Source: Ethanoligenens harbinense YUAN-3 (lineage in GTDB: Bacteria; Bacillota; Clostridia; Oscillospirales; Ethanoligenentaceae). From it: 64,000 nucleotides of DNA. The notes beneath the pieces were generated by a model. The model had not been told where the DNA came from, did not search any database, and worked only from the letters and a program-made list of their open reading frames with translations. The translations under genes were made by a program, and so were the position numbers. This document shows, piece after piece, positions 24,460 to 42,787 of the stretch. Each line of letters starts with the position of its first letter. Position 1 is the first letter of the stretch. Where the stretch lies: positions 581,501 to 645,500 of the forward strand of contig NC_014828.1 in assembly GCF_000178115.2 (NCBI RefSeq), in the 5' to 3' direction.

Positions 24460-24469
24460 GGAGACCCAT

Positions 24470-24889: not shown

Positions 24890-24895
24890 AATAGT

Positions 24896-25264: not shown

Positions 25265-25359
25265 TTTCAAATTGGCAGGGCGGGTGTTGCAGCCTGCTCT
25301 GCCAATTTGTTTTGCGGTTTTTCGTGTATGCTCATGTACTGAATGTTCCAGGAGGAGTT

Positions 25360-26205
25360 ATGCTCGACTTTCAAATTCTCACGGATAATATCGTGAACCG
25401 TCCGCATCTGCTTGCAGAGCACGGTTTGTCCTTGTGGATCAGGGATGATGATAAACAAATTCTTTTTGACACCGGCCAAACGTCGGTTTTTCTGCAAAAT
25501 GCCTTATCCCTGGGTATACCGATACAGAACGCGGATGCCATTGTATTAAGCCACGGGCATTACGATCATTGCGGTGGAGTGGTCAGCTATCCGTTTGGAG
25601 ACAGTAAAACAAAACTGTATATCGGGTCCAATGCCTTTGAAACGAAGCTTTCGGTAAAGGGCGGCGCCATCCGAAATATTGGAATACCCTGGGGACGCGC
25701 GTTTTTTGACAGAGTGGGAGATCGGATAGTTGAAATAAAAAATGGTGATGAGATATTCACTGGAATCCACGTGCTTGGGGGAATCGCCCGGTATAACGAT
25801 TATGAAAAGGTGTCCGAATGCTTTTACACGGAGAGGGACGGCCAGAAGAGCAGAGACACGATGGAGGATGAACAACTGCTGGTGATGGAAAGAAAAGACC
25901 GCTTGGCGGTCTTTTCGGGTTGCAGCCACAAAGGCGTCATCAACTGTGTGGAGCATGTGCGAACAAAATTTCCTGGAAAAAGAATACATACTCTGGTTGC
26001 GGGCATGCATTTGCAAGGCGTCAGTAAAGAAAGATTGGATGCCACCATCGAGTATTTTGTAAATTCTGAAATAGAACGCATAATACCGTTGCATTGCACG
26101 GGAATAGAACCGATCTGTGAACTGAAAAGGGCGCTGCAGGATCGGTGCCTGATTTGCGCGGTTGGCGACCGCATCGTCATAGATGAAGGAACAAGATGGG
26201 TTTGA
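25360..26205 (+). CDS. MBL-fold metallohydrolase
   Basis: 281 residues; GGAGGAG at 25351-25357 sets the ATG at 25360, so the longer frame from 25261 is not used. The beta-lactamase metal motif is HGHYDHCGG, with later ligands in SGCSHKGVIN and GMHLQG. This is the DHPPS-like MBL group often found beside NifX/MinD clusters. It ends the operon. Confidence 0.86.
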   Translation: MLDFQILTDNIVNRPHLLAEHGLSLWIRDDDKQILFDTGQTSVFLQNALSLGIPIQNADAIVLSHGHYDHCGGVVSYPFGDSKTKLYIGSNAFETKLSVKGGAIRNIGIPWGRAFFDRVGDRIVEIKNGDEIFTGIHVLGGIARYNDYEKVSECFYTERDGQKSRDTMEDEQLLVMERKDRLAVFSGCSHKGVINCVEHVRTKFPGKRIHTLVAGMHLQGVSKERLDATIEYFVNSEIERIIPLHCTGIEPICELKRALQDRCLICAVGDRIVIDEGTRWV

Positions 26206-26382: not shown

Positions 26383-27867
26383 TCATGTTCTTTCGGGGTA
26401 CCACCCAATCGGGCCGGGTGCCAGATTGAGGTTGATCTGCTTGATTTCCTGATACTCTTCAAGACCGTGGACGCCCAGTTCACGGCCGATCCCGCTGCGT
26501 TTATAGCCTCCCCACGGCGCTTCGTTGAAGGTGGGATTATAGCAGTTGATCCAGGTGATGCCGGCGCGTATTTCCCGAATGACACGCATGGCACGTGTCA
26601 CATCGCTGGTGAACACCGCTCCCGCAAGGCCGTATTCAGTATCGTTGGCCAGAGCAATCGCTTCCGCCTCGGTTTTGAACGTCTGAACGGTCACAACAGG
26701 GCCGAAAATTTCCTCACGCACAATCTTCATATCGGATGTGCAGTCATCGAAGATTGTGGGGCGCACAAAAAAGCCGCTGGCGCATTCGCCTTCCGTATAA
26801 CGCTCACCCCCGCAGACCAGCATGGCCCCCTGCTCGACCCCGCTGTGGATATACCCCAGGACCTTTTCCATGTCTTTTTCCGTAATCAGCGGGCCGATGT
26901 CCGGGTTATCCAGCCCGTTGCCGATGGTCATGGCATTGGCACGCTCGGCCAGCCGTTTTACAAACGCATCCTTGATGGATTCTTCAATGATGATACGGGA
27001 ACCAGCGGAACAGATCTCCCCTTGGTTGAAGAAAATGGCGATCATGGCCCATTCCACCGCACCGTCCAGATCGGCGTCTGCAAAGATCACGTTCGGGGAC
27101 TTACCGCCGAGCTCCAGCCCGATCCGTTTGACATTTCCCGCCGCCGCACGCATCAGGCTCTGGCCGACCCGCGTGCTTCCGGTGAAGGCGATCATATCCA
27201 CATCGGTGTTTTGCCCCAGTTCAGCGCCCACTTCCGCATCGCCCTGCAGCAGGTTGGCGCAGCCCTTCGGCAGGCCGATTTCCTCAAAAATCTCAAAAAG
27301 CCGGATGGTGGAAAGCGGCGCCTTTGGGCTGGGCTTGAACACGACGCTGTTCCCGGCCGCCAAAGCGGGCGCAAGTTTCCAGACGGACATTAAAAACGGG
27401 TAATTCCACGGGGTGATCTGTGCACACACGCCCACCGGTTCGCGCACCGTGTAGGCGTGCATCGGCCCAAAGTTGCTGTTGACATCATATGCACCGCCGT
27501 ACGGCGCTTTGATGAGCCCGGCATAATAGCGGAACGTATGGATTCCATCGTCGATATCGCCCTCTGCTTCCCGTAGGGGCTTGCCGTTATCCATGGTGTC
27601 GAGCTTCGCCAGCTCGGCTGCGTGTTCTTCGATTTTGTCCGCGATTTTCAACAGGAGATCTCCCCGCTTCTGGGAATCCATATCTCGCCATTCCCGCGTT
27701 TCATAGAAAGATCGTTTTGCCGCCGCAATGGCTTGGCGCGTATCGTCCAGGCTACTTTCATAAACCTGGCTGAACACGTTTCCCGTAGCGGGGTTGACGA
27801 TGTCTATGACTTTGCCGGAGCTTCCTTCCACCCATTTCCCGTCGATATACATTTTTTTGACCGCCAT
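26383..27867 (-). CDS. NAD(P)-dependent aldehyde dehydrogenase, probably 4-aminobutanal dehydrogenase
   Basis: 494 residues from the ATG preceded by AAAGGTGG. ALDH hallmarks are present: TPWNYPFLMSVWKLAPALAAGN, FTGSTRVGQ, catalytic Glu in LELGGKSPN, catalytic Cys in NQGEICSAGSR, and EEIFGPVV. Closest in style to betaine/aminoaldehyde dehydrogenases. The neighbours (GABA transaminase, putrescine aminotransferase, polyamine importer) suggest oxidation of 4-aminobutanal to GABA. Substrate is inference from context. Confidence 0.88.
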   Translation of the reverse strand: MAVKKMYIDGKWVEGSSGKVIDIVNPATGNVFSQVYESSLDDTRQAIAAAKRSFYETREWRDMDSQKRGDLLLKIADKIEEHAAELAKLDTMDNGKPLREAEGDIDDGIHTFRYYAGLIKAPYGGAYDVNSNFGPMHAYTVREPVGVCAQITPWNYPFLMSVWKLAPALAAGNSVVFKPSPKAPLSTIRLFEIFEEIGLPKGCANLLQGDAEVGAELGQNTDVDMIAFTGSTRVGQSLMRAAAGNVKRIGLELGGKSPNVIFADADLDGAVEWAMIAIFFNQGEICSAGSRIIIEESIKDAFVKRLAERANAMTIGNGLDNPDIGPLITEKDMEKVLGYIHSGVEQGAMLVCGGERYTEGECASGFFVRPTIFDDCTSDMKIVREEIFGPVVTVQTFKTEAEAIALANDTEYGLAGAVFTSDVTRAMRVIREIRAGITWINCYNPTFNEAPWGGYKRSGIGRELGVHGLEEYQEIKQINLNLAPGPIGWYPERT

Positions 27868-28445
27868 ACGGACCACCTTTCTGTCGCATGCTATACGGAT
27901 TCGGGCCTGTTCGGCCGGATTTTACCTGTGAAACTTGCTTGGGCGTGTGGAAAAATTACCGTTTTGAGATCTGCGGTGCTTTATTCCAGTACCTTTTGCG
28001 AAACGAATCCCAATGGATTTCCACATTTCCGGCACCGGGCCGGAAGATCAAGGGCCTTTCATGCTAACGGTTTTCTGGAATGGGTCCCCTTGTTTTTACA
28101 CAGGATCGCATAAGACCAAAAGAGAAGGGAACCGTTTCCCGATCCTGGGTAAACGGCTCCCTTGCCTTATCATTTATCTTACACACCTAAACGCCAAAAA
28201 GCAATGCGCCACGCGTGCGAATCTTTTTCTGTTGCGGGTCATGACATGATGCGAAAGGGCGGCTTTTCTTCTCCTTTCGAATGATTTGAGATTCCGTTTT
28301 CGCTCGTTTTGCCCGTAAACGCCGCGATCTTCTGTTTCGTCCGTTCCGCCATATGGATTCGGATGCCTGTTTCCGATACGATCAGGTATGCGCCAAATCA
28401 TTTCGGACGTGGATCATATGGGAGGGTGCAGCGGGAAAACGGTGC
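27868..28445. other. Gap between aldehyde dehydrogenase and GABA transaminase genes
   Basis: About 580 bp with no supported gene. It contains a hairpin at 28125-28163 that would terminate minus-strand transcription after gabT. The aldehyde dehydrogenase may then need its own promoter, which I could not identify. No CANTATATTG box was found here. Confidence 0.45.
28117..28163 (-). terminator. Hairpin after gabT on the minus strand
   Basis: On the minus strand AAGGGAGCCGTTT pairs with AAACGGTTCCCTT (one mismatch) over a 12-base loop and is followed by CTCTTTTGG. Confidence 0.55.
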
Positions 28446-29843
28446 TTATTGACCGGCCAGGCTGGTCTGGATGGCCGATTCCAGAATAGCCAGACCGCTG
28501 TTCAGCTGAGCATCCGTTACGACAAGCGGGCACAGGAACCGCAGCACATTGGAATAGATGCCGGCCCCCTCAATGATCAGACCGTTGGCCACGGCATTTT
28601 GAATGATATCCGATACCAGCCGGGCATTCGGATGTTTGCTCGTTTTGTCCGTCACAAACTCAATGCCCATCATGCAGCCGATGCCCCGCACATCGCCGAC
28701 TTCTTCATATTTTTCTTTCCATCCGTTAAACACAGACATACAGGTATGGGAAATCTCCTGCGCGCGCTCACAAAGATGGTCACGCTCCATGATCTCGATA
28801 ACCTTCAGGGCGGAGGCACAGGCCAGTGCATTGCCGCCGTAAGTGCCGCCGATGATGCCGGGTTTGATTCCATCAAAAATTTCCGCCCGGGCCGTTACGG
28901 CGCTGAGCGGGACACCACCCGCAATGGATTTGGCGGTCGCCAGGATATCCGGCGCGCATCCGGCCTCTTCCCAGTAATTGGACACAAACATTTTCCCGGA
29001 ACGTGCAAACCCGGTTTGCACCTCATCCGCGATGAGCAGGATGCCTTTTTCATCACAGAGTTTCCGAACCGCCTGTACCCACTCGATTGGTGCGGGGATG
29101 AATCCACCCTCACCCTGCACCGGCTCGAGAACGATGGCAGCCACATATTCCGCCGGAGAGGCTTCGTCGAATGCCCGCTCAAGCCGTTCCATATAATAGG
29201 CGATGGCCTCGTCTTTGCTGTACCCCTTTGGTGCGCGGTACAGATACGGAAAATCCGCACGATACACGCCGTCCGGATAGGGCCCGATGCCGGACGAATA
29301 AACTTTCTTTGAGGTCATGGTCAGCGTCAGCAGTGTCCGCCCGTGAAAGGCACCGGAAAAAACGATGATGTTGGGCCGCTTGGTAAAGGACTTTGCGATC
29401 CGGACGGCGTTTTCGTCCGCCTCGGCTCCGGAATTGGCAAACATCGTCTTCTTTCGTGCGCCCCGGATCGGGGCGATCTCGTTCATTTTTTCAGCCAGCC
29501 GGACATAGCCCTCATGTGTCACGATGTTCATCATGGCATGGAAATATTTGCCTGCCTGCTCCTGCACGGCTTGCACAACTTCCGGCTGGCTGTAGCCGAT
29601 ATTCAGCACGCCGACGCCGCCGACCCAATCCAAAAAGATGTTTCCGTCCACATCTTCGATCATGGCCCCCTCGCCGCGCTCAATGACGCAGGGGTAAACC
29701 GTTTTGATGGCATTCGGGACCGCGGCCGAGCGTCTGGCCAAAACGGCGCTGGCTTTCGGTCCCGGCAGTTGTGTGCGGATCTGGGGCAGAGCATCCCGGA
29801 GCAGCTGCGGTTTCGCCGCAGATATTGTTTCCTTGGGCAACAT
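28446..29843 (-). CDS. gabT: 4-aminobutyrate aminotransferase (class III PLP enzyme)
   Basis: 465 residues from the ATG preceded by AAAGGGAGA. Class III motifs: the NSGAEADENAVRIAK substrate loop, FSGAFHGRTLLTLTMTSK, IVLEPVQGEGGF, LLIADEVQTGFARSGKMF, and the PLP lysine in ATAKSIAGGVPLSAV. It matches the GabT type and would convert GABA plus 2-oxoglutarate to succinate semialdehyde and glutamate. Its stop is followed by a terminator, and its start lies 38 bp after the alcohol dehydrogenase stop, so those two form one operon. Confidence 0.9.
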   Translation of the reverse strand: MLPKETISAAKPQLLRDALPQIRTQLPGPKASAVLARRSAAVPNAIKTVYPCVIERGEGAMIEDVDGNIFLDWVGGVGVLNIGYSQPEVVQAVQEQAGKYFHAMMNIVTHEGYVRLAEKMNEIAPIRGARKKTMFANSGAEADENAVRIAKSFTKRPNIIVFSGAFHGRTLLTLTMTSKKVYSSGIGPYPDGVYRADFPYLYRAPKGYSKDEAIAYYMERLERAFDEASPAEYVAAIVLEPVQGEGGFIPAPIEWVQAVRKLCDEKGILLIADEVQTGFARSGKMFVSNYWEEAGCAPDILATAKSIAGGVPLSAVTARAEIFDGIKPGIIGGTYGGNALACASALKVIEIMERDHLCERAQEISHTCMSVFNGWKEKYEEVGDVRGIGCMMGIEFVTDKTSKHPNARLVSDIIQNAVANGLIIEGAGIYSNVLRFLCPLVVTDAQLNSGLAILESAIQTSLAGQ

Positions 29844-29880
29844 AGGAGATTCTCCCTTTCCGTTTTCTTTTGTTCTTGGA

Positions 29881-31011
29881 TTACAAAGCTTTTCGATAGA
29901 TATTTCGCAGCGCTTCCCTGTCAAAGACAACCGGATGGTTGGCGATACCTGCCGCCGATACTTTCATGCAATTTTCCACCATCCAGTCGATATCACCATT
30001 CTGAATGCCCTGTTCGCCCAAATGGGTGCTCAGATGCAGCTGCGCGAGCAGATGGCGAATCTGATCTACGCAGTCGGTTTCGTTTTTTCCGCCCAGGCTT
30101 CGCGAAATCAGCGCAAATTTTTCCGGCGCGCCCGAAATCGACTCTTCATAAACGGCCGGTGTCAATGCTGCAAGTCCGCCGCCGTGAACGATGTTGTGCA
30201 GACCGCTTGCAGGGTGTTCCATGCCATGCGGCGCGGTCACGCCGGCGGTATGGATGACCATGCCGCCCAGCGTGCTGCCCCAGCTGATATGGTCCCATGC
30301 GTCCAGATCGGCCGGGTCCGTATATGCGCGGATGAGATATTTGCCCAACAGCCGGATTCCCTCCGCCGACAGAATATCTGTCATAGGCTGACCGATCCTG
30401 GAAATAAAGGCTTCCATGTTATGGCACAGCGCATCAAAGCCGACGCTGGCCAGAATATGCCGCGGCATGGTCGTCATCAATTCCGGGTCGATGATGGAAG
30501 CTTTCGGAACGATCGCGTTGCAGCGAAGGGACTTTTTGTCGTGGTTTTCGGGATTGGAGAGCACCGCAAAGCCGTTGCCTTCACTGCCCGTGCCGCAGGT
30601 GGTGGGCACCAGCACGATGGGCAGCGCCTGGTCGGAAACTTTTTTGCCGAATATGTAATCGGAGATGTCCCCTTCGTTCTTTGAGAGAAACGCGATTGCC
30701 TTTGCGGAATCCATTGCACTGCCGCCGCCGATGCCCACCACCACATCACAACCGGACGCGCGCGAAAGCGCGGCGCCCTGGCAAGCGGTGGATGTCAAAG
30801 GGTTTTGCTCGACTTTGTCGAACAAAACCGTTTCAATGCCCGCCTTTTTCAGGGAATCCGTCGCCCGATCCAGAAGCCCGGTTTTTTTTGTGCTGTTTCT
30901 TCCAGTCACAATTAAAGCCTTTTTTCCATAGAGGGAGGCTGTTTCCCCTAATCGGTTCACTTTTTCCCGTCCAAAAATCAGATTGACAGGCAGATAGTAT
31001 TGAAATTCCAA
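29881..31011 (-). CDS. Iron-containing alcohol dehydrogenase, probably 4-hydroxybutyrate dehydrogenase
   Basis: 376 residues with a TTG start after GAGGGACACGA. Group III ADH motifs: nucleotide site GIGGGSAMDSAKAIAF, PTTCGTGSE, metal-binding region with CHNMEAFISRIGQPMTDILS and HGMEHPASGLHN. It is in an operon with GABA transaminase, so reduction of succinate semialdehyde to 4-hydroxybutyrate is the likely reaction, as in GABA-fermenting clostridia. A consensus promoter carrying a regulator box lies 200 bp upstream. Confidence 0.88.
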   Translation of the reverse strand: MEFQYYLPVNLIFGREKVNRLGETASLYGKKALIVTGRNSTKKTGLLDRATDSLKKAGIETVLFDKVEQNPLTSTACQGAALSRASGCDVVVGIGGGSAMDSAKAIAFLSKNEGDISDYIFGKKVSDQALPIVLVPTTCGTGSEGNGFAVLSNPENHDKKSLRCNAIVPKASIIDPELMTTMPRHILASVGFDALCHNMEAFISRIGQPMTDILSAEGIRLLGKYLIRAYTDPADLDAWDHISWGSTLGGMVIHTAGVTAPHGMEHPASGLHNIVHGGGLAALTPAVYEESISGAPEKFALISRSLGGKNETDCVDQIRHLLAQLHLSTHLGEQGIQNGDIDWMVENCMKVSAAGIANHPVVFDREALRNIYRKAL

Positions 31012-31208
31012 TCGTGTCCCTCATTTCCTGGTTTTGTGAGTGCCGCAGTGCATCGTGCCCGGCCTTTCCCGACTGGCGGACAGAAAAAACGGGTTGTGAC
31101 GGCAAACGGGCATAAAAAAAGACACTCCCCCGTTTGGGTGGAACATCTTTGTTCTTGCGGTATTTTCACAATATAAAGCACGGTCAAACCGGTTCAATCG
31201 CTGGATTC

Positions 31209-31237
31209 ATTATATGCGATGTGCAATATATTGTCAA
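31209..31237 (-). promoter_or_regulatory. Consensus promoter of the alcohol dehydrogenase-gabT operon
   Basis: On the minus strand: TTGACA (31237-31232), exactly 17 bp, TATAAT (31214-31209). It is a perfect sigma-A match. Operator box A (31224-31233) overlaps the 3' end of the -35 and the start of the spacer, a position typical of repression. Confidence 0.8.
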
Positions 31238-31264
31238 TAATAAAATAAAAAGCACACTATATTC
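31224..31264. promoter_or_regulatory. Operator boxes A and B (CANTATATTG)
   Basis: CAATATATTG at 31224-31233 (a perfect 10-bp palindrome) and CACTATATTC at 31255-31264, 31 bp apart or about three helical turns. Both are flanked by GTG/GCA and TC/CAC extensions. They recur in front of the XRE-cupin gene, which identifies that protein as the likely ligand. Confidence 0.65.
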
Positions 31265-31266
31265 AC

Positions 31267-31818
31267 TCATTTCCATGTGAACAGCATATAGAACCGCAAT
31301 ATGCCTTTGCCGGCGTTGTAGTAGCAGTGTTCCTTGTCCGCGTCCATCCGGATCGCGTCTCCTTCGTTCAGAATATACCGTGTGCCTCCCATTTCGACGG
31401 TTAGTTGTCCGGAGAAAACAATGTTGTATTCCGTTGTTTTTTCGCCGTGTGAGCTGCAGGGGTAGCTGCCTCCCGGTTCTACCTCCACGCTGTATATTTC
31501 AAAATCCCGGTCAGGCTCATAGGGGAAATAGGCGTAATTTCGAAAGGCGTCTTTGGCCGACTTGATGGGGATCAAGGTGTCCTTTCGCATGATGTAGACC
31601 TCGTCGTGCGGGGGACCCACCAAGTCCATAAATTCCACGCGCAGCCCGCTGACGATTTTTCCCAATGTTGCGATAGTCGGGTTGGCTTCGCCGCGCTCGA
31701 TCTGCCCGAGCATGCTCTTGCTGATGCCTGTTTCAGTTGCCAGCGCATCCAGGCTTAGCTTTTTCGCCTTTCGGATTTTTTTCAGATTGATTGCGATATT
31801 TTCATTTAAATAATCCAC
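31267..31818 (-). CDS. XRE-family regulator with C-terminal cupin domain
   Basis: 183 residues with a GTG start preceded by AAGGAGGT at 8-base spacing; the open frame continues 290 bp upstream but crosses the operator boxes and has no ribosome site. Residues 10-65 form the HTH (IRKAKKLSLDALATETGISKSMLGQIERGEANPTIATLGKI); residues 105-180 form the cupin (PGGSYPCSSHGEKTTEYNIVFSGQLTVEMGG). This is the PuuR-like layout known for putrescine catabolism regulators. It probably represses itself and the downstream alcohol dehydrogenase-gabT operon. Confidence 0.88.
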   Translation of the reverse strand: MDYLNENIAINLKKIRKAKKLSLDALATETGISKSMLGQIERGEANPTIATLGKIVSGLRVEFMDLVGPPHDEVYIMRKDTLIPIKSAKDAFRNYAYFPYEPDRDFEIYSVEVEPGGSYPCSSHGEKTTEYNIVFSGQLTVEMGGTRYILNEGDAIRMDADKEHCYYNAGKGILRFYMLFTWK

Positions 31819-31838
31819 CGCAGTGTACCTCCTTAGTG

Positions 31839-31878
31839 CACTATATTGATCGACTTGTTTTAAAAACACAGTATATTG
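31839..31878. promoter_or_regulatory. Operator boxes C and D (CANTATATTG)
   Basis: CACTATATTG at 31839-31848 and CAGTATATTG at 31869-31878, 30 bp apart, in the leader and promoter region of the XRE-cupin gene. Minus-strand TATAGT (31845-31840) overlaps box C and is a possible -10. The pair mirrors boxes A and B in spacing. Confidence 0.65.
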
Positions 31879-32229
31879 CACGATCTTTGCGATCGACGAA
31901 GTGAGGGAGACAATGGCCCGCCGGCAGAAAGCGCATGCTTTCTGCGGCTGTTCTGCGACCGGGTGATTGTTTACATCATAACGTAGTTTCTTGAACACGA
32001 CAAGAAGCAAATTCCAACCGGTACTGCCAACGCTGCGGAGGCCTGTGCCGGTGAAAAAGTGGAAAAACGGTTGCAGGCAGGAGTATAGGGCATTGTAATC
32101 CGGGCGCACCGCTTGGCTCAGACAGTCGGGCAGACTGCCGCTTTACAAACCGCCGGAAGCGGTTTTTCGTGGCGGAGTGGCAGACGCTCATTAACACTCA
32201 CGGAGAGATTTTCTTGCTATCGTAATGCA

Positions 32230-32253
32230 AAACAATTATAATTATAATAGTTT
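32230..32253. promoter_or_regulatory. AT-rich 24-bp palindrome upstream of the LuxR gene
   Basis: The centre ATTATAATTATAAT is self-complementary and is flanked by AAACA and AGTTT, which pair with one mismatch per side. It lies 65 bp before the LuxR-type gene and is a candidate binding site for that protein. Confidence 0.4.
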
Positions 32254-32317
32254 GTGGCGCTCTATAATCGTAAATTGTGCGCATAAGAGATTAGACTGTA
32301 TGATTAGTTGAGGTAAA

Positions 32318-33058
32318 ATGCAAATGAAACAACTGGAAACAAACGATTGGCTTGTGTTAAACAGTATCATTTATAAAATTTATACGATGGAAGACTTTGA
32401 TGGCATGCGGAAGACCTTGCTGGAACAACTGAAAATGGTGCTTGACTTTGACAGCGCCGACTTTTTCCTGGCAAACACGGATGGAAAACCGGGCCTTATC
32501 AGGCCGGTGGCCCACAACTGCGATTGCATTTATCCGCAGACGTATGACGAACTGGATTACAGCCGCGGCATCATGTATGGCGGCAAGAGCCTGATTTACC
32601 GCGAGACCGATATCATCAGCGATGAAAAACGCATGGAGACAACCTATTATAAAAAAGTTTATATTCCCAACAACTGGCACTTTTCGTTGCAGATGATTCT
32701 CGCACGCGAAAAGGATTTTCTGGGTGTCATCACGTTTTACCGCACCATCGGCAAGGACAACTTCCACTACGACGATATTTTCCTGTTGGACATGCTGAAA
32801 GACCACCTGGCCTTTCGCCTGTATCAGGAGAGGGAGAGCAAAAGCACGGACAAGCTCACGGTGACACAAGCGGCAGAACAGTATGGGCTGACCAGACGAG
32901 AGGAAACCATTCTGGGTCTGCTGGTAGAGGGGGAGGAAAATGGTGCAATCTGTGAGAAGCTGGTTATCAGCATCAACACGCTGAAAAAGCATATGCTGAA
33001 TATTTATCGGAAGATGGGCATTAAGCATCGTGTTCAGATATTTAAAATCATTCAATAA
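32318..33058 (+). CDS. LuxR-type transcriptional regulator with GAF-like sensor
   Basis: 246 residues; GAGGT at 32310 is close to the ATG at 32318 and better placed for the in-frame ATG at 32324. Residues 15-170 resemble a GAF-like sensor (VLDFDSADFFLANTDGKPG, FLGVITFYRTIG). Residues 185-245 are the GerE/LuxR HTH (LTRREETILGLLVEGEENGAICEKLVISINTLKKHMLNIYRKMGIKHRVQIFKII). It lies between the catabolic and uptake halves of the putrescine locus and may sense availability of substrate for the transport operon. Confidence 0.83.
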   Translation: MQMKQLETNDWLVLNSIIYKIYTMEDFDGMRKTLLEQLKMVLDFDSADFFLANTDGKPGLIRPVAHNCDCIYPQTYDELDYSRGIMYGGKSLIYRETDIISDEKRMETTYYKKVYIPNNWHFSLQMILAREKDFLGVITFYRTIGKDNFHYDDIFLLDMLKDHLAFRLYQERESKSTDKLTVTQAAEQYGLTRREETILGLLVEGEENGAICEKLVISINTLKKHMLNIYRKMGIKHRVQIFKIIQ

Positions 33059-33171
33059 GATTATGAAAATGGAACTTTAGAATGGATACGGGACCCAAAA
33101 GCAGAAGAATTATCGCGCATACGATGCATTGTTTTTTGGCATCTTAGTGTGTAAGATAAGATCAAGCGAAG

Positions 33172-33208
33172 GAGCTGTTTACCCTTTCAGGGCAAGCAGC
33201 TCTTTTTT
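33172..33208 (+). terminator. Terminator between LuxR and P-II genes
   Basis: GAGCTG (33172-33177) pairs with CAGCTC (33197-33202) and an inner CCCT pairs with AGGG; TTTTTT follows. It either ends the LuxR transcript or attenuates read-through into the P-II-pot operon, whose first start is 68 bp on. Confidence 0.75.
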
Positions 33209-33275
33209 GGTTTCCTGTGGATATTTTGTGAAAACCGAAATGTACGCATGCAAGACTGCGGGAGGGTAATGGATA

Positions 33276-33626
33276 ATGAAAGAACTGGTTTTGGTCATTC
33301 GTCCGGAAATGTTGGAAGTGTTGAAATCGATTTTGGATGACGTGCATTGCGGCGGGATGACGGTTTCGAGCGTGATGGGCTGCGGCACCCAAAAGGGCGT
33401 GGTGGAAGGCGGCATCAATGAGATCAAGGGCTTTAAGATGAACATCAACTTGCTGCCCAAGATCCGTGTTGAGGTTGTGGTGGAAGACGATGTGGTGGAG
33501 GAAATCATCTCCAGTGTACGGGAGCGCATGGCGACCGGCCATGTGGGAGATGGAAAAATTTTCATCCGCAACATTGACGGCGTGGTTCGTATCCGCACGG
33601 GCGAACGCGGCGTGAAAGCGCTGTAA
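33276..33626 (+). CDS. P-II family signalling protein with atypical T-loop
   Basis: 116 residues. The core matches P-II: KELVLVIRP start, GMTVSSVMGCGTQKG, PKIRVEVVVEDDVVEEII, and the nucleotide-binding TGHVGDGKIFI. The T-loop (VVEGGINEIKGFKMNINLL) is shortened and has no Tyr at the uridylylation position, so it cannot be modified in the classical way. It lies 23 bp upstream of potA, which suggests that it gates the polyamine importer, as P-II paralogues gate their adjacent transporters. Confidence 0.88.
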   Translation: MKELVLVIRPEMLEVLKSILDDVHCGGMTVSSVMGCGTQKGVVEGGINEIKGFKMNINLLPKIRVEVVVEDDVVEEIISSVRERMATGHVGDGKIFIRNIDGVVRIRTGERGVKAL

Positions 33627-33649
33627 AATCTGGAGGGAGGTTGATCGGG

Positions 33650-34759
33650 TTGGGGAAAAACATCATGGTCCACATTCAGGATGTAAGCAAATCCTTTGGT
33701 GAGAACCGCATCGTCCGCAATCTGTCCATGGATGTATACGAAGGCGAGTTTTTGACCATTCTGGGCTCATCCGGATGCGGAAAAACCACAACGTTGCGCA
33801 TGGTGGCCGGATTTGAGCACCCCACCAGCGGCAGAATTCTGGTGCAGGGAGTGGATATCGCAGACAAGGAACCATATGAGCGGGATGTCAATACCGTTTT
33901 TCAGAGCTATGCGCTTTTCCCGCATATGAGTATTTTTGATAATGTGGCCTATGGCCTGAAAATGAAGAAAGTACCGAAAAAAGAGATCCGGGAGCGTGTG
34001 ATGAGCATGCTGGAGCTGGTGCAGCTTGACGGGTTTCAAAAACGGATGCCGTCGCAGCTTTCGGGCGGACAGAAACAGCGTGTGGCGATTGCACGCGCGC
34101 TGATCAATCATCCCAAGGTGCTTCTGCTGGATGAACCGCTGGGCGCCCTGGACCTGAAGCTGCGCAAGCAGATGCAGCTTGAACTGAAACGGCTGCAGCG
34201 CAAACTGAACATCACGTTTATCTATGTCACGCACGACCAGGAGGAAGCGCTTTCCATGAGCGATCGCATCGCGATCATGCATGATGGAGTGCTGGAACAG
34301 GTGGCCGGGCCGGAAGAGATCTATGAGGCGCCGGCTTCTAAATTCGTTGCCACCTTTATCGGGGAGACCAATCTGTTTGAAGGGGTCATCAGCAACATGG
34401 CGGACGGGAACGTTTCGGTTACCATCGAGTCGGGCCTGATTCAATGCCGCGGAGCGGGTTTTCACGAAAAAGATATCGTCGCCGTTTCGGTGCGGCCGGA
34501 GCGGATGCAGTTTTCCACCTCCAGCGTGGACGGCTTCAGTCTCGAAGGGGTTGTAAAGGAGCAGGTCTATGTTGGGTCCATCCTCAAAGCCATTGTGGTG
34601 CTGCCCAATGGGTACGAAGTCAAACTGGAGCGCCTGGCCGGGGATGCCCTGCCCATGAACGGCGCGGTTTACCTGTATTGGCGGCCGGAAGATGCGCGGC
34701 TGATCCATTTGCAGGATCAGGTGGTTTATCACGCGGTTGAGAATGTCAAGCTGGCGTAG
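33650..34759 (+). CDS. potA: Spermidine/putrescine importer ATPase
   Basis: 369 residues if the TTG at 33650 is used (9 bases after GGAGGGAGG); the TTG at 33641 abuts the ribosome site and the ATG at 33665 is further off. Walker A GSSGCGKTT, signature LSGGQKQRVAIARAL, Walker B LLLDEPLGALD, switch VTHDQEEALSMSDR, then a C-terminal TOBE-like domain (VSVRPERMQF). The PotA identity is supported by the gene order with potB and potCD. It powers polyamine uptake. Confidence 0.92.
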   Translation: MGKNIMVHIQDVSKSFGENRIVRNLSMDVYEGEFLTILGSSGCGKTTTLRMVAGFEHPTSGRILVQGVDIADKEPYERDVNTVFQSYALFPHMSIFDNVAYGLKMKKVPKKEIRERVMSMLELVQLDGFQKRMPSQLSGGQKQRVAIARALINHPKVLLLDEPLGALDLKLRKQMQLELKRLQRKLNITFIYVTHDQEEALSMSDRIAIMHDGVLEQVAGPEEIYEAPASKFVATFIGETNLFEGVISNMADGNVSVTIESGLIQCRGAGFHEKDIVAVSVRPERMQFSTSSVDGFSLEGVVKEQVYVGSILKAIVVLPNGYEVKLERLAGDALPMNGAVYLYWRPEDARLIHLQDQVVYHAVENVKLA

Positions 34760-34771
34760 GGGGGTGGAAAA

Positions 34772-35638
34772 ATGGGAAAGCCAAGCAAACGGACGGATGC
34801 GGGACAGATTGCCGTTATGGTCGGTCCGGTTACCTTGTGGCTGGCGTTTTTGGTGGCGGTTCCGCTTGTTTATGTGTTTATTATGAGTTTTTGCAGCCTA
34901 GACCAGAATTACAATGTGGTTTTCCGTTTTACACTGGAAAACTATCGGCGGCTTTTGGACTGGGACTACATACAGGTTTACGGGCAGTCTATTTTGATTG
35001 CATTTCTGGCAACCGCTATTTGCATTGTGTTGGCTTACCCGTTTGCCTTTTTGATTGCCCGGACTTTTCAGAGCAAAAAGACGACCTTATATATGATGGT
35101 GATTATTCCGTTCTGGACGAATTCCTTGATTCGCATTTACGGCTGGCGCACCTTTCTGGGCGCGAACGGGATGCTCAACAAACTGCTGATGGCGCTGCAT
35201 ATGACCGGTGGGCCGGTGCAGTTTCTGTTCACCCGCGGGGCAACGGTGCTGGGTATGGTGTATGTCCTGTTCCCGTTTATGGTACTGCCGCTGTACACGG
35301 CGATCGAAAAACTGGACCAGTCGCAGCTTGAGGCGTCGGCTGATCTTGGCGCGCGCGGAGGCTCCACATTCTGGCATGTGATTCTGCCGCAGACGACGAG
35401 CGGCGTGTTTTCGGGCTGCATCATGGTCTTTATTCCGTGTCTCGGTTATTTCTATGTATCCGATATTCTGGGCGGCGGCAACACGAACGTCATCGGCAAC
35501 CTGATTGAGCGGCAGTTCCAGAGCGGAAACAACTGGCCTTTAGGCGCGGCGCTGTCCATTATCCTGATTGCGATCACCCTGCTGCTGGTCAAGCTGTACC
35601 AGAAGTGTGGCGGCGATATGCAGAGTTTGGGGGTGTAA
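34772..35638 (+). CDS. potB: Spermidine/putrescine importer permease PotB
   Basis: 288 residues, six membrane helices, EAA loop EASADLGARGGSTFWHVILPQT near residue 188, and the conserved IPFWTNSLIRIYGWRTFLG of PotB proteins. Start 12 bp after potA and stop 4 bp before the potCD start, so the three genes form an operon. Confidence 0.92.
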   Translation: MGKPSKRTDAGQIAVMVGPVTLWLAFLVAVPLVYVFIMSFCSLDQNYNVVFRFTLENYRRLLDWDYIQVYGQSILIAFLATAICIVLAYPFAFLIARTFQSKKTTLYMMVIIPFWTNSLIRIYGWRTFLGANGMLNKLLMALHMTGGPVQFLFTRGATVLGMVYVLFPFMVLPLYTAIEKLDQSQLEASADLGARGGSTFWHVILPQTTSGVFSGCIMVFIPCLGYFYVSDILGGGNTNVIGNLIERQFQSGNNWPLGAALSIILIAITLLLVKLYQKCGGDMQSLGV

Positions 35639-35642
35639 CGAT

Positions 35643-37577
35643 ATGCACGGACAGACCAGAGAAACATTCCGGCGAAAGAGCGGTGCCGTTTATTGCGGGC
35701 TCATTTATGCGTTTCTGTTTTTGCCGATTGCCGTCATTATTATCAATTCGTTCAACGCCAACACGTTCAAGCCGTATTTCAGATGGACAGGTTTTACGTT
35801 TGACTGGTATGTGAAGCTGTTTCAAAACACGGGGCTGCTTCAATCTTTTGGAAACACCATCTTTCTGGCACTTGCCACAACCGTGCTTTCCGTGATGATC
35901 GGAACCGTGGCCGCAGTGGGGATATACAAGTTCCGGTTCCGCGGAAAAGACATCATAAACGGGCTGCTGTATATCCCGGTTGTCATTCCCGAAATCGTGC
36001 TGGGCATTGCGCTGCTCTCGCTCTTTTCCAAAGTGGGAATTCCGCTTGGCATGCTCTCGCTGCTTCTGGCCCACGTCACGTTCTGCATCCCGTATGTCAT
36101 TTTCAATGTGCGTGCGCGGCTTGATGGATACGACCGCTCCATCGAGGAAGCATCTATGGACTTGGGAGCCACGCGCCTCCATACGTTCCTGCGGATCACG
36201 TTGCCGGTCCTTGCGCCCGGAATCGGCGGAGGCGCACTGCTTGCGTTCACGCTTTCGATTGACGATGTGATCATCAGCTACTTTACCAACGGCCAGACGA
36301 TGACGTTTCCGCTGAAAGTTATGGCAAGCATCAAAAGCGGCGTCGCGCCGGATGTCAACGCGCTTTCCACTTTGATCCTGCTGGTCACAACAGGCGTTGT
36401 CGCTCTGGTGCAGACCGGCCTGCTGAAAAAGTTCGTCGGCAAGGTCGGCACCGCATTGTCGGCTCTTTTTTACATCGGGCGGGACGAGCTGGATACGAAG
36501 CAGCGCGCGGTGAGGAGAAGGCGGGGTGTCGGCACCGCGTTGGCCATTGCGATTGTGGCCGGTGTGCTGCTTTCCGTCGGTAAAAACGCCGGCACCTCCG
36601 CCGTCGGGAGGAACGGACAGCTCAATCTGTTTATCTGGACGGAATATGTGCCGGATTCGGTGATTCAGAACTTTGAAAAAGAAACCGGCATCCAGGTCAA
36701 TGTCTCCAACTATTCGTCCAATGAAGATATGCTTGCCAAGGTAAAATCGGAAAAAGCGGGGGCGTTCGACATTGTGCAGCCCACCGACTATATGGTTCAG
36801 CAGATGATCGGCCAGGGATTGCTGCAGAAACTGGATAAATCCGCGCTGACAAACATGAAAAATATCGGCAGCTCGTATCTCAACCAGTATTATGACCCAA
36901 ACAACAATTATTCCGTGCCGTATTTGGGTGGGGTGGCGGCCATTGCCGTCAATACCCAAAAAATCAAAGACCGCATCACAGGGTATGCCGATCTGTTCAA
37001 CCCGAAGTATAAAAACAGCATTGTTTCCCTGGACGATTACCGCGCCGTCATCGGCATGACCGCACGCAGCCTCGGCATGAGCATGAATGAGACAGACAGC
37101 GCAAAGCTGGATGAAATCAAAACCCAGCTCATGAAATTGAAAGGCAATATCAAACTGTATGACAGCGACAGTCCAAAATCCGCGCTGATTTCCGGCGATG
37201 CGACCCTCGGCTTCTGCTGGAATGCGGAGATCACGTTGGCCATGGAGGAAAACCCGGCGATCAAGATTGTGTTCCCCAAAGAAGGTGCCTATGTATTTGT
37301 AGACAACTGGTGCATTACCAAAGGGGCAAAGAATGTCCGGCAGGCAACGGCTTTCATCAACTACATGCTGAAAGCGGAAACAGCCAAAGAGGTGTCTGAG
37401 GAGTATCCGTATATGCAGCCGAATGCGGCGGCCGTGGAATTGTTGGGCAGTGCTTACAAAAACAATCCGGCGCGGAATGTTCCGCAGGATGTTATCAAAA
37501 AGGGGGAGCATGTCGCCAATCTGGACGTCAATACGCTGGCCCGGTATGATGCGATGTGGACGGATTTGAAAAAGTAA
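35643..37577 (+). CDS. potCD: Fused PotC permease and PotD polyamine-binding protein
   Basis: 644 residues from the ATG after TGGGGGTGTAACG. Residues 1-275 are PotC with six helices and the EAA loop EASMDLGATRLHTFLRITLP. A seventh helix near 300 (GTALAIAIVAGVLLSVG) carries the chain to the outer face. Residues 325-644 are a PotD-type binding protein (LNLFIWTEYVPDSVIQNFEKETGI, FDIVQPTDYMVQQMI, NWCITKGAKN). The binding protein is thus tethered to the channel instead of being a lipoprotein. Such fusions are known in some Firmicutes. A terminator follows at 37692. Confidence 0.93.
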   Translation: MHGQTRETFRRKSGAVYCGLIYAFLFLPIAVIIINSFNANTFKPYFRWTGFTFDWYVKLFQNTGLLQSFGNTIFLALATTVLSVMIGTVAAVGIYKFRFRGKDIINGLLYIPVVIPEIVLGIALLSLFSKVGIPLGMLSLLLAHVTFCIPYVIFNVRARLDGYDRSIEEASMDLGATRLHTFLRITLPVLAPGIGGGALLAFTLSIDDVIISYFTNGQTMTFPLKVMASIKSGVAPDVNALSTLILLVTTGVVALVQTGLLKKFVGKVGTALSALFYIGRDELDTKQRAVRRRRGVGTALAIAIVAGVLLSVGKNAGTSAVGRNGQLNLFIWTEYVPDSVIQNFEKETGIQVNVSNYSSNEDMLAKVKSEKAGAFDIVQPTDYMVQQMIGQGLLQKLDKSALTNMKNIGSSYLNQYYDPNNNYSVPYLGGVAAIAVNTQKIKDRITGYADLFNPKYKNSIVSLDDYRAVIGMTARSLGMSMNETDSAKLDEIKTQLMKLKGNIKLYDSDSPKSALISGDATLGFCWNAEITLAMEENPAIKIVFPKEGAYVFVDNWCITKGAKNVRQATAFINYMLKAETAKEVSEEYPYMQPNAAAVELLGSAYKNNPARNVPQDVIKKGEHVANLDVNTLARYDAMWTDLKK

Positions 37578-37691
37578 TGTAGCCGCCCGTGTAAAGGCCG
37601 GAAGCGGTTTCGACAGCAGCCTTCCTTCTGCCCGGCCGATGCATGGAGCGAGTCGATCATACTTAAATAGAAGACGATATATGAAAAAAAT

Positions 37692-37723
37692 AGCCGCTAT
37701 TCATTATGAATGGTGGCTTTTTT
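37692..37723 (+). terminator. Terminator of the P-II-pot operon
   Basis: AGCCGCTATTC pairs with GAATGGTGGCT (G-U pairs allowed) over a 5-base loop and is followed by TTTTTT. Confidence 0.8.
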
Positions 37724-37802
37724 AGTCTTAAAAATCATAAAATATAATCATAAAACGGTATGAATTGATAAACAGAAGTAGAAAGACGGTGCGTTTGGAG
37801 AA

Positions 37803-37831
37803 TTGAAAGCCTGTGTGGCAAAGCGTATGAT
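37803..37831 (+). promoter_or_regulatory. Promoter of the putrescine aminotransferase gene
   Basis: TTGAAA (37803-37808), 17 bp, TATGAT (37826-37831). The start point would fall near 37838, leaving a leader of about 70 nt that holds a terminator-like hairpin. Confidence 0.55.
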
Positions 37832-37848
37832 AAATATAACGCAATGAG

Positions 37849-37877
37849 GCGATGGGAAAGGGTTCCCGTCGCTTTTT
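37849..37877 (+). terminator. Leader hairpin (possible attenuator) before patA
   Basis: GCGATGGGAA pairs with TTCCCGTCGC (one G-U) over a 4-base loop and is followed by TTTTT. It lies between the predicted promoter and the ribosome site at 37896, so it would stop transcription before the gene unless relieved. Confidence 0.6.
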
Positions 37878-37908
37878 CATTTTGAAAATGAACCAGGGAG
37901 GATTTCAT

Positions 37909-39261
37909 ATGAGTTATGCAGACGTGAGCAAGGATCTGGAGCGGGTGATCGGCTACATACACGCCGACAAACTGACGGATGAAGAAAAAGAAACAATGAC
38001 AAGGGAAACGCTCCATTATTTCGATGAATATGTGAGTCCAGGCTGGCTCAAATACCGCAAATCCGTTTCCACCAATTCTGCCGTGCTGGAATGGACGGAT
38101 CGCGATTCTGTGCTTGACGGCATGAACGGTGAGGAGTTCATTGACTGTCTGGGCGGATTCGGCATCTACACCTGCGGCCACCGCAACCCTGAAATTCTCG
38201 ATACGGTGAAGGCGCAGCTGGACCATCAGGCGCTGCATTCGCAGGAACTGCTGGATCCGCTGCGCGGTTATCTGGCGAAGGCTGTGGCGGACATCACGCC
38301 CGGCGATCTGGGAAAGTGCTTCTTTACCAACGGCGGTGCCGAAGCGGTGGAGATGTCGCTGAAACTGGCACGAATCGCCACCGGCGGACGCTGGTTTGTC
38401 TCCACGGTCAGCGCGTTTCACGGCAAGAGCATGGGTGCCATCTCGGTGGGCGGCAAAAACACATTCCGCATTCCCTATACGCCGATGGTGCAGCAGGTCG
38501 TGCATGTGGAATATGGCAATGCGGAAGATACGCGCAAAGCTGTGCGCAATCTGCAGGCGGTCGGTGAAAAAGTCGCTGCCGTCATTGTGGAGCCCATTCA
38601 GGGCGAGGCGGGTGTCATTGTGCCGCCCGAAGGGTATCTGAAAGAACTGCGCGCCGTGTGTGATGAATGCGGTGTCGCACTGATTTTTGACGAGATTCAG
38701 ACCGGTATGGGGCGTACCGGCACCATGTGGCGCTGTGAAGTGGAAAACGTCACCCCCGATATCCTGATCTTTGGCAAAGCGTTCGGCGGTGGCATCATGC
38801 CGATTACCGGCCTTATCTGCCGTCCGCCCATGTGGACGCAGCAACTGATCGACAACCCGTGGCTGTTGGGCTCCCCGACCTTCGGCGGCAACCCGGTGTG
38901 CTGTTCTGCGGCTCTTGCCACCATCAAGTTTATGATCGACCATGACATCCCGGGACAGGCAAAGCGAAAAGGCGCCGTACTGAAGGCAGGGCTGCAGAAG
39001 CTGAAAGAGAAGTATCCCGCCGTCATCGTGGACGTGCGCGGCGAAGGTCTGATGCTGGCGGTCGAATTTGAGAAGAGTGAAATCGGCTACAGCATTGCAA
39101 AGGGCATGTTCGCGCGCGGTGTTCTGACAGCCGGCACGCTGAACAACAGCAAAACGGTCCGGTTTGAGCCGCCGGCCGTCATCACGGAAGAGCAGATCGA
39201 AAAGGTGCTGGCCCGCATGGATGAGGCCCTGGCCGAAACAGAACGGGAGTTTGCGCGTTAA
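37909..39261 (+). CDS. patA: Putrescine aminotransferase (class III PLP enzyme)
   Basis: 450 residues from the ATG after GGGAGGA. The sequence follows E. coli PatA (YgjG) closely: VSPGWLKYRKSVS, EFIDCLGGFGIYTCGHRNPEIL, QALHSQELLDPLRGYLAK, EPIQGEAGVIVPPEGYL, DEIQTGMGRTGTMW, PLP lysine in ILIFGKAFGGGIMPI, and AGTLNNSKTVRFEPP. It transfers an amino group from putrescine to 2-oxoglutarate, giving 4-aminobutanal. It sits directly after the polyamine importer operon but has its own promoter region. Confidence 0.92.
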   Translation: MSYADVSKDLERVIGYIHADKLTDEEKETMTRETLHYFDEYVSPGWLKYRKSVSTNSAVLEWTDRDSVLDGMNGEEFIDCLGGFGIYTCGHRNPEILDTVKAQLDHQALHSQELLDPLRGYLAKAVADITPGDLGKCFFTNGGAEAVEMSLKLARIATGGRWFVSTVSAFHGKSMGAISVGGKNTFRIPYTPMVQQVVHVEYGNAEDTRKAVRNLQAVGEKVAAVIVEPIQGEAGVIVPPEGYLKELRAVCDECGVALIFDEIQTGMGRTGTMWRCEVENVTPDILIFGKAFGGGIMPITGLICRPPMWTQQLIDNPWLLGSPTFGGNPVCCSAALATIKFMIDHDIPGQAKRKGAVLKAGLQKLKEKYPAVIVDVRGEGLMLAVEFEKSEIGYSIAKGMFARGVLTAGTLNNSKTVRFEPPAVITEEQIEKVLARMDEALAETEREFAR

Positions 39262-39851: not shown

Positions 39852-39977
39852 GCCCTGACGGCGGCGCGCGGTTTGAAATGTCTGCCGGTGCGTAGGAAAA
39901 TGTGATATAGTATGTCATATGAGAAGCGCCCGATCTGTTCGGGCCGGATAACCGGCATATTTAAAAAGGGGATGGCC

Positions 39978-40661
39978 ATGCAAAACCGGATTCTGATAGC
40001 AGACGATGACAGGGAAATCGTCGAGGTGATGGATGATGCACTGCGGGACGAAGGATTTGAAACCGTCCGTGCCTATAATGGAAAGCAGGTTTTGGAACAA
40101 CTGTCCGGAGAAAAACCGATTGACCTGTTTATTCTGGACATCATGATGCCGGAAATGGACGGACTGGAAACGCTTCGTCATATCAGGGAACGGACGGATG
40201 CCCCCGTGCTTATCCTCAGCGCCCGCGGCCGGGAGATAGACAAGGTGATCGGCCTGCGTGTTGGAGCGGACGACTATGTCTCAAAACCGTTTTCCGTCGA
40301 TGAGTTGATGGCCCGGGTGGGTGCGCATCTGAGGCGGGAAAACAAGCACAGACAGTCCGCGCCGGTCACCGGCATCGGCGCTCTGAAGCTCGATCCGTCC
40401 AGTTGGACGGTGGAGGTGGATGGCAAGCCGGTGGAACTGTCCGGCAAGGAATTTCAGATTTTATCGTATCTGCTGATCAACGCCGGGCAGACCGTTTCGC
40501 GCGAGCAAATCTATGCAGCTGTCTGGAAAGACGCATTCGGCGGCGATTTAAGTACCGTAACGGTCCACATCAAAAATCTGCGCGACAAACTGGGAGCGGA
40601 GGGGCGCCGCATTCGCACCGTCTGGGGCATCGGTTATCGTCTGGAGCGTGACCTCCCATGA
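39978..40661 (+). CDS. OmpR/PhoB-type response regulator
   Basis: 227 residues; AAGGGGA positions the ATG at 39978 (ATG at 39972 also possible). Receiver domain with acidic pair DDD near residues 9-11, phospho-acceptor Asp in FILDIMMPEMDG near 54, and Lys in DDYVSKPFSVDEL. A C-terminal winged helix follows (VELSGKEFQILSYLLINAGQTVSREQIYAAVW). It overlaps the kinase gene by 4 bp. Confidence 0.92.
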   Translation: MQNRILIADDDREIVEVMDDALRDEGFETVRAYNGKQVLEQLSGEKPIDLFILDIMMPEMDGLETLRHIRERTDAPVLILSARGREIDKVIGLRVGADDYVSKPFSVDELMARVGAHLRRENKHRQSAPVTGIGALKLDPSSWTVEVDGKPVELSGKEFQILSYLLINAGQTVSREQIYAAVWKDAFGGDLSTVTVHIKNLRDKLGAEGRRIRTVWGIGYRLERDLP

Positions 40662-42782: not shown

Positions 42783-42787
42783 GCCGG

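Follow-up and report, generated by a model that had tools for sequence, protein, structure and literature searches.

Positions 26383–39261 of a 64,000-nt stretch of Ethanoligenens harbinense YUAN-3 (contig NC_014828.1; the whole stretch is called the window below) carry genes for putrescine uptake and breakdown, which we read, with moderate confidence, as a nitrogen-salvage module under ANTAR-type transcription attenuation that ends in 4-hydroxybutyrate. The new part of the locus is a set of shared attenuators: four transcription units (P-II/pot, aminotransferase, aldehyde dehydrogenase [ALDH], and iron-containing alcohol dehydrogenase [Fe-ADH]) open with a hexaloop hairpin that overlaps an intrinsic terminator. 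An earlier note, made from this DNA alone, had placed a polyamine importer, the aminotransferase, both dehydrogenases, a 4-aminobutyrate (GABA) transaminase, and regulators within 13 kb, and all of these were found there. The leaders and their promoter-like sites are as follows.

28118–28166, minus strand: ALDH leader, hexaloop GGC[AAGGGA]GCC at 28155–28166 overlapping a terminator at 28118–28163
28176–28204, minus strand: promoter-like site of the ALDH leader, TTGCTT-17-TAAGAT, read from the sequence, with the same GTGTGTAAGATAA core as the P-II promoter
31114–31154, minus strand: Fe-ADH leader, hexaloop GAAC[AAAGAT]GTTC at 31141–31154 overlapping a terminator at 31114–31150
31209–31237, minus strand: Fe-ADH promoter-like site, TTGACA-17-TATAAT (12/12 match), overlapped by TGCAATATATTG
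33129–33157, plus strand: promoter-like site of the P-II/pot operon, TTGTTT-17-TAAGAT, read from the sequence
33165–33208, plus strand: P-II/pot leader, hexaloop AGC[GAAGGA]GCT at 33165–33176 overlapping a terminator at 33168–33208
37803–37831, plus strand: aminotransferase promoter-like site, TTGAAA-17-TATGAT (10/12 match)
37840–37877, plus strand: aminotransferase leader, hexaloop CGC[AATGAG]GCG at 37840–37851 overlapping a terminator at 37846–37877

Judged from the promoter-like sites, the hairpin begins at about the expected transcript start in three units (P-II, ALDH, and aminotransferase). Start context places the likely start of the aminotransferase at the ATG at 37909, and its leader would therefore be untranslated. 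We rejected a riboswitch reading, as Rfam gave nothing in 27900–38000 even at E ≤ 1 and, for three of the four units, the leader implied by the promoter-like sites could not accommodate an aptamer. The repeated GTGTGTAAGATAA was likewise dismissed as a special motif: it is the −10 region, and 12 of 100 shuffles reach two copies at two mismatches.

Similar leaders recur in relatives. A search with the aminotransferase fetched 75 loci, of which 72 (L001–L072) encode it at ≥ 60% identity; gene counts use these 72 and are lower bounds, some fetched stretches being short. The picking of open reading frames (ORFs) masks some genes (e.g. in L001) behind opposite-strand ORFs, and the class of other ORFs includes mechanical ones. 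A motif-free scan took ORFs that had a credible ribosome site and an upstream gap of 120 bases or more, and required a terminator 3' end within 75 bases of the start. It found a terminator leader at 22 of the 48 aminotransferase genes and 6 of the 13 P-II genes, compared with 11 of the 178 ORFs classed as other in these loci. Counts elsewhere were 7/20 for an antiporter-like family (c5), 3/5 for GABA transaminase, 3/11 for PotD, 2/3 for AguB, 1/7 for PotA, and 4/32 for LuxR, with none for family c9 (0/5) or for Fe-ADH, family c12, and PotB (0/1 each). Repeating the motif-free scan over a longer region placed CRANGRNG at the 5' arm of the terminator for 45 of the 48 module leaders, compared with 4 of the 12 remaining leaders.

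Covariation supports the hairpin. A motif-plus-fold scan, which gave no match in 1070 shuffled regions, found 39 leaders, and 33 of these were aligned with the window's ALDH and aminotransferase leaders, added by hand, to give 35 rows (three near-duplicates, L050, L057, and L016, and three odd cases, L023, L034, and L028:5529, were dropped). The scan fixed the closing C and G and an A at loop position 2, permitted any purine at loop positions 1, 4, and 5 and any pyrimidine after the closing G, and left the remaining stem pairs free, so that it is their covariation that constitutes the evidence. Given no structure, RNAalifold returned a four-pair hairpin with a six-base loop overlapping the terminator 5' arm. 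The hexaloop stem is 91% paired, with a covariation of 0.632, whereas 500 shuffles gave 0.255 ± 0.040 and sliding gave no more than 0.184; its third pair is G-C in 19 rows, A-U in 12, and G-U in 4, and is broken in none. Loop position 4 is G in 35/35 rows, A having been permitted too, and position 1 is A in 29/35. An earlier G4 count of 30/32 was inflated by a script that preferred loops with G4 and A or G first.

The likeness to ANTAR systems such as EutV, NasR, and AmiR lies in the hexaloop overlapping an intrinsic terminator, the association with nitrogen genes, and the presence of an ANTAR gene; A1 and G4 are usual here too, at frequencies that alone do not set these loops apart from those at other terminators. 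PMC3369931 describes ANTAR targets as two hexanucleotide stem-loops, with A first and G fourth and the second overlapping the terminator, which mostly precede nitrogen genes, including those for P-II and glutamine synthesis; neither "putrescine" nor "polyamine" occurs in its main text. According to PMC8934654, one hexaloop is the minimal ANTAR binding motif, and EutV antitermination uses both. An ANTAR target in a Streptomyces agmatinase mRNA is reported in PMC8164766, the only ANTAR-RNA paper among the matches listed for ANTAR with polyamine or putrescine; PMC5424462, also listed, concerns NasT-type nitrate control. Compared with the described targets, the leaders here have one hexaloop each, at or near the transcript 5' end, and a looser loop consensus.

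The E. harbinense genome is a single contig of 3,008,576 bases (100% complete by the computed figure) with one ANTAR-domain match, a 181-residue ORF directly behind the type I glutamine synthetase gene glnA. A covariance model built from the 35 leaders (R1) gave eight matches in this genome at E ≤ 10, comprising three training leaders (P-II, ALDH, and aminotransferase) and five others. Among the latter, one precedes urtABCD (E 0.15; urtB, urtC, and urtD pass their cut-offs and urtA fails), one a CobW/ABC operon (E 0.47), and one the type III glutamine synthetase gene glnN (E 3.4); another, at E 2.5, is at a site known by sequence alone and resembles a gene-end terminator. The urtA leader reads GTGC[AAGGGT]GCAC and the glnN leader TGCGGAAC[AAAGGC]GTTTCGCG.

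The genomes of ten relatives gave 40 R1 matches at E ≤ 0.5, spread over nine of them, and loci were examined for 30. Ten precede putrescine-module genes (seven being training leaders) and two precede c5-like antiporters. The other 18 include three before glutamine synthetase genes (E 0.006, 0.10, and 0.42) and one before a P-II gene (E 0.05), together with nine before genes for three ABC ATPases, three Lrp regulators, a family-3 binding protein, a branched-chain-type permease, and a class-III aminotransferase. The last five do not fit: they lie before a GntR gene and a family-8 solute-binding protein gene, inside uxaC, and, in two cases, beside no usable gene. ANTAR genes were present in 43 of 50 relatives' genomes, with two matches in five of them. 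Counting every match at E ≤ 1, whatever its strand or place in the locus, R1 matched 37 of 43 loci whose genome has an ANTAR gene and 2 of 7 whose genome lacks one (p 0.004); outside the training set, the counts were 17 of 23 and 0 of 5 (p 0.005), relatedness being ignored in both comparisons.

We propose a switch in which the leader RNA would fold either as the hexaloop hairpin or as the overlapping terminator, and the sole ANTAR protein, encoded behind glnA, would bind the hexaloop under nitrogen limitation and allow read-through. Expression would be set by attenuation at four promoters in addition to the LuxR and XRE-cupin regulators. The protein-coding genes of the locus are as follows.

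26383–27876, minus strand: ALDH of betaine-aldehyde/aminoaldehyde type, proposed 4-aminobutanal dehydrogenase (Pfam Aldedh, 586 bits)
28446–29843, minus strand: GABA aminotransferase-like class-III transaminase (TIGR00700, 474 bits; PDB matches GabT/PuuE)
29881–31011, minus strand: Fe-ADH, proposed succinate semialdehyde reductase (Fe-ADH Pfam family)
31267–31818, minus strand: XRE-cupin regulator, 183 residues (profile matches; PuuR-like at low score)
32318–33058, plus strand: LuxR-family regulator with a GAF-like sensor domain (GerE domain)
33276–33626, plus strand: PotN-type P-II protein (best PDB match 7o4x; tree split 0.991)
33641–34759, plus strand: PotA, polyamine ABC ATPase (TIGR01187, 381.5 against a cut-off of 355.6)
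34772–35638, plus strand: PotB permease (NF007044, 286.7; cut-off of 348 not reached)
35568–37577, plus strand: PotC-PotD fusion of permease and binding protein, 669-residue ORF (both matches in one ORF)
37852–39261, plus strand: putrescine aminotransferase, YgjG type (NF008570, 680.1 against a cut-off of 612)

Two of these calls were shortened. The class-III transaminase ORF (28446–29930, minus strand) is over-long from its TTG, and the ATG at 29843 is the likely start; the 280-residue XRE-cupin ORF is also over-long, and a GTG behind AGGAGG gives 183 residues, which makes it as long as its counterparts in relatives L022 and L028. PotC and PotD are separate ORFs in relatives where both were called and are fused in the window, where the binding protein would be membrane-anchored via PotC.

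In the proposed pathway, the Pot ABC importer would bring putrescine in, and the YgjG-type aminotransferase would pass the first amino group to 2-oxoglutarate, giving 4-aminobutanal, which the ALDH would convert to GABA with formation of NADH. The GABA transaminase would then remove the second amino group, and the Fe-ADH would reduce the resulting succinate semialdehyde to 4-hydroxybutyrate, re-oxidising the NADH from the ALDH step. Family matches and gene neighbourhood support putrescine uptake and its conversion through GABA to succinate semialdehyde, whereas the final reduction is plausible, given the co-occurrence of Fe-ADH with GABA transaminase, and the specificity of the Fe-ADH for succinate semialdehyde is one that we infer. 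The continuous path from putrescine to 4-hydroxybutyrate drawn in the earlier note is supported as far as succinate semialdehyde, and its last step is plausible. Among the enzymes and the importer, only the aminotransferase and PotA pass a specific curated cut-off, and the aminotransferase scores 499 on a second model, TIGR03372, below its cut-off of 658.65.

The genes group with the aminotransferase more often than by chance. Relatives carrying much of the set are mostly Clostridia, and the aminotransferase is co-located with ALDH in 43/72 loci, PotA in 27/72, P-II in 26/72, a close LuxR in 24/72, and GABA transaminase in 15/72; an Fe-ADH of the window's type is present in 4/72 and any Fe-ADH in 17/72. 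An Fe-ADH accompanies 10 of the 15 loci with GABA transaminase and 7 of the 57 without (Fisher p 6e-5, relatedness ignored). The Fe-ADHs beside GABA transaminase fall into two distant groups (∼26% identity), which suggests a need for a reductase at such loci. Agmatine deiminase occurs in 8/72 and N-carbamoylputrescine amidase in 12/72 loci, one reference protein of each passing its curated cut-off, and these agmatine-to-putrescine genes provide independent support for putrescine as the substrate.

Two gene orders recur: LuxR-PII-PotA-PotB-PotC-PotD-ALDH-aminotransferase (L006, L008, L009, L010, and L064) and, mostly in Clostridium, PII-PotD-PotA-PotB-PotC-amidohydrolase-ALDH-(LuxR reversed)-aminotransferase (L014, L016, L017, L019–L021, L024, and L072). 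L002 and L003 have consecutive aminotransferase-ALDH-GABA transaminase-Fe-ADH genes, and other loci, mostly of Lachnospiraceae, have the aminotransferase without pot genes. The ALDH is on the aminotransferase strand in the relatives mapped and on the opposite strand in the window, where the degradation half is inverted and both the XRE-cupin gene (operon head in L022 and L028) and the LuxR gene are present; the window locus thus looks like a rearranged composite. No title describing it was among the matches listed in literature searches on putrescine/4-hydroxybutyrate clusters, Anaerovorax, and pot-operon P-II. The earlier note knew of no described locus that unites all these parts in this order, a view that is partly wrong: a P-II in a pot operon belongs to the described PotN subfamily, and relatives share much of the gene set.

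Some loci depart from this gene set. In the Anaerotignum/Chakrabartyella group (L012, L013, L023, L026, and L027), a CoA-acylating-type aldehyde dehydrogenase (family c18) is present and no close ALDH copy; it adjoins the aminotransferase in four of the five loci, a possible 4-aminobutyryl-CoA variant. Family c5, an Na+/H+-antiporter-like membrane protein, is near the aminotransferase in 27 loci (e.g. L033, L037, L039, L040, and L055) and is possibly an alternative amine transporter.

The P-II protein can be assigned to the PotN subfamily by its P-II domain, its place in a pot operon, and its tree grouping. A PotN subfamily of P-II has reportedly been described by Iskhakova et al. in 2022, as cited in PMC9692440. 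In a FastTree phylogeny, pot-linked P-II proteins and 7o4x split from other P-II proteins with a local support of 0.991, leaving outside the paralogues from the same genome, 7p4v, a GlnK-like protein of L135, and the P-II of L042. Of the 27 loci with PotA, 25 have a P-II gene; of the 45 without PotA, only L042 has one. The structure 7o4x is PotN of Lentilactobacillus hilgardii, according to PMC9692440. A P-II gene within a polyamine transporter operon is therefore not new; what differs from the L. hilgardii case is its union with a putrescine degradation set and leader attenuators. PotN probably gates the importer. Across the genome, ten P-II domain matches were found; several of them form neighbouring NifI1/NifI2-like pairs, which suggests that there is more than one nitrogenase-type cluster.

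The fate of 4-hydroxybutyrate separates nitrogen salvage from fermentation, the term used in the earlier note. Profile searches of the complete 3.0 Mb genome gave no match to 4-hydroxybutyryl-CoA dehydratase (PF03241, PF11794) or to the CoA-transferase domain PF13336, which we take AbfT to carry, the two enzymes that the note had named for a genome search. As a positive control, the PF11794 search of 33 relatives' genomes gave five positives (L010, L012, L020, L030, and L035), and the one checked, L020 (C. chromiireducens), is a true dehydratase matching 1u8v at E 6e-249; among the 15 relatives with GABA transaminase, the 14 searched, many of them drafts, had none (L069 was left out). Thus, any 4-hydroxybutyrate made here could go no further along that route and would be excreted as waste.

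Arithmetic on textbook reactions points the same way. The four reactions sum to putrescine + 2 2-oxoglutarate + H2O → 4-hydroxybutyrate + 2 glutamate, which is redox-neutral if the ALDH and the Fe-ADH share a cofactor, the NADH of the ALDH step being consumed by the Fe-ADH. No step yields ATP, and ABC import costs it. With leaders that point to nitrogen limitation, these results speak against fermentation, and nitrogen salvage fits the locus better. The first three reactions and the use of putrescine as a nitrogen source are those of the E. coli transaminase pathway (YgjG/PatA-PatD-GabT), which ends in oxidation to succinate, whereas the end proposed here is reduction to 4-hydroxybutyrate. The anaerobic GABA and putrescine fermenters Clostridium aminobutyricum and Anaerovorax odorimutans share the intermediates down to 4-hydroxybutyrate and differ in the dehydratase and PF13336 step, for which this genome has no match.

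Several results weigh against the reading we favour, and those on the RNA side bear on whether the leaders are ANTAR targets at all or 5' attenuators of another RNA- or DNA-binding factor (LuxR, LoaP-like, or other), an alternative that we consider doubtful yet serious. A first hairpin, required by described ANTAR antitermination, was sought and rejected, with a candidate in only 2 of 32 leaders; the leaders are thus ANTAR-like with one defining feature, the dual hairpin with a short linker, failing. By their promoter-like sites, the P-II, ALDH, and aminotransferase transcripts would open directly with the single hairpin, which leaves no room for a first one. When the longest-stem hexaloop was taken without preference, A1 and G4 each occurred in 35 of 45 module leaders and in 6 of 10 at other terminators, so the loop bases alone do not discriminate and are weak evidence. 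The training set was itself chosen with the motif, and the motif-free scan found a terminator leader in none of the 12 relatives' ALDH genes tested. R1 missed the Fe-ADH leader at E ≤ 10 despite its place in the training set, gave weak E-values for urt and glnN, and found its best new match (E 0.009; L120, 1105281–1105329) before a DUF4213/DUF364 gene and a binding protein gene in a metal-uptake-like operon. Two relatives, L007 and L048, both metagenome-assembled drafts, have leaders and no detected ANTAR gene, and six (L008, L009, L013, L025, L026, and L063) have the gene and no R1 match at E ≤ 1. Against another factor stand the covarying stem that overlaps the terminator, the G at loop position 4 in all 35 training rows, where A was permitted too, the single ANTAR gene beside glnA together with leaders at glutamine synthetase genes, and the single hexaloop reported as a minimal site in PMC8934654.

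On the enzyme side, the ALDH, the GABA transaminase, and the Fe-ADH score under the cut-offs of the proposed enzymes, and their substrates therefore rest on neighbourhood. The ALDH scores 473.8 on the aminobutyraldehyde dehydrogenase model (cut-off 615), and the transaminase falls short on TIGR00700 (506.65 needed), GABA transaminase models nonetheless ranking top. The Fe-ADH reaches no NCBIfam cut-off, scoring 190.7 of 500 on the 4-hydroxybutyrate dehydrogenase model NF058672, and is closer to the ErcA and choline dehydrogenase models. This shortfall would suit a pathway in which nitrogen is still taken from putrescine and succinate semialdehyde is oxidised to succinate, the Fe-ADH acting on another aldehyde or in detoxification, as would the five of 15 GABA transaminase loci without an Fe-ADH in the stretch covered and a second full-length ALDH elsewhere in the genome (L090), which could perform the oxidation. 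We regard this version as unlikely: that ALDH is far under the succinate-semialdehyde dehydrogenase cut-off (323 against 646), oxidation would leave two NADH for disposal, and GABA transaminase is accompanied by Fe-ADHs of two distant groups. Energy-yielding fermentation through 4-hydroxybutyryl-CoA and crotonyl-CoA to butyrate and acetate begins with identical steps, and a PF11794 protein does occur in five of the 33 relatives' genomes, a dehydratase in L020; we rejected it as very improbable for a complete genome with no dehydratase match, in view also of the 14 searched relatives with GABA transaminase, many of them drafts and all without PF11794, and of leaders common to nitrogen genes. 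Choline/betaine aldehyde metabolism has on its side the highest-scoring ALDH model, the NCBIfam betaine aldehyde dehydrogenase (BADH) model (604.4, with 668.6 needed), the closest PDB entries, which are S. aureus BADH (plant aminoaldehyde dehydrogenases rank below retinal dehydrogenases), and a score of 225 for the Fe-ADH on the model of the choline dehydrogenase GbsB (550 needed). The partner genes, namely the putrescine aminotransferase, the pot genes, and, in some relatives, the agmatine genes, favour putrescine, and the families identified in the locus include no choline transporter or betaine gene, a negative that covers the locus and not the genome at large; we rejected this explanation, the least probable of those considered.

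If putrescine salvage under ANTAR-type attenuation is correct, these bacteria draw nitrogen from putrescine and may release the neuroactive compound 4-hydroxybutyrate when nitrogen is short. More broadly, and with rather less than even confidence, we propose that single-hexaloop ANTAR attenuation near the transcript start is a general nitrogen-limitation switch in Clostridia, with a regulon of putrescine uptake and breakdown, glutamine synthetase, P-II, and urea transport, and that the pathway is a redox-closed nitrogen salvage spilling 4-hydroxybutyrate. The terminator leaders at nearly half of the aminotransferase genes tested (22/48) would connect polyamine use with an RNA switch in a way that can be tested, and the single ANTAR gene of most genomes searched might serve as the control point. 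The range of RNAs recognised as ANTAR sites would also grow to include single-hexaloop targets, which searches for dual hairpins would miss.

Of the three candidate regulators in the earlier note, LuxR and XRE-cupin stand as such, whereas P-II is a signalling protein and not a DNA-binding regulator. Members of the LuxR cluster occur in 46 loci out of 73, a set that includes the window, and many of them share only 25–35% identity. The AlphaFold model of the window's LuxR protein (predicted local distance difference test [pLDDT] 90.5) matches SdiA, CviR, and phytochromes in the PDB, a resemblance to LuxR-type quorum regulators and GAF-containing sensors that suggests a small-molecule sensor; as a guess, its ligand might be putrescine or a product. 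A pattern search gave partial matches to a LuxR operator. The XRE-cupin protein shares with PuuR its type and its place adjoining putrescine genes, but scores 39 bits on the PuuR model, where 211 are needed, and by that test is not an orthologue. An XRE-type box, TGCACTATATTG, occurs five times in the window against 4.16 expected and is not enriched, although four of the five are grouped near the XRE gene and the Fe-ADH promoter. Four TGCAATATATTG-like boxes at 31169–31233 and 31837–31880, around the same gene and promoter, are likely operators, although such boxes show no enrichment across the window.

Other parts of the window carry distinct features. A cluster at 21891–26205 encodes two ATPases of the ParA/MinD type, which have ferredoxin-like cysteines, along with two Nitro_FeMo-Co proteins, a thioesterase, and a protein of metallo-beta-lactamase fold. 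A response regulator, a histidine kinase, an ABC ATPase, and a 1084-residue FtsX-type permease at 39912–46030 resemble a peptide-sensing type module by their make-up, and a T-box leader lies at 53642–53899 (118 bits).

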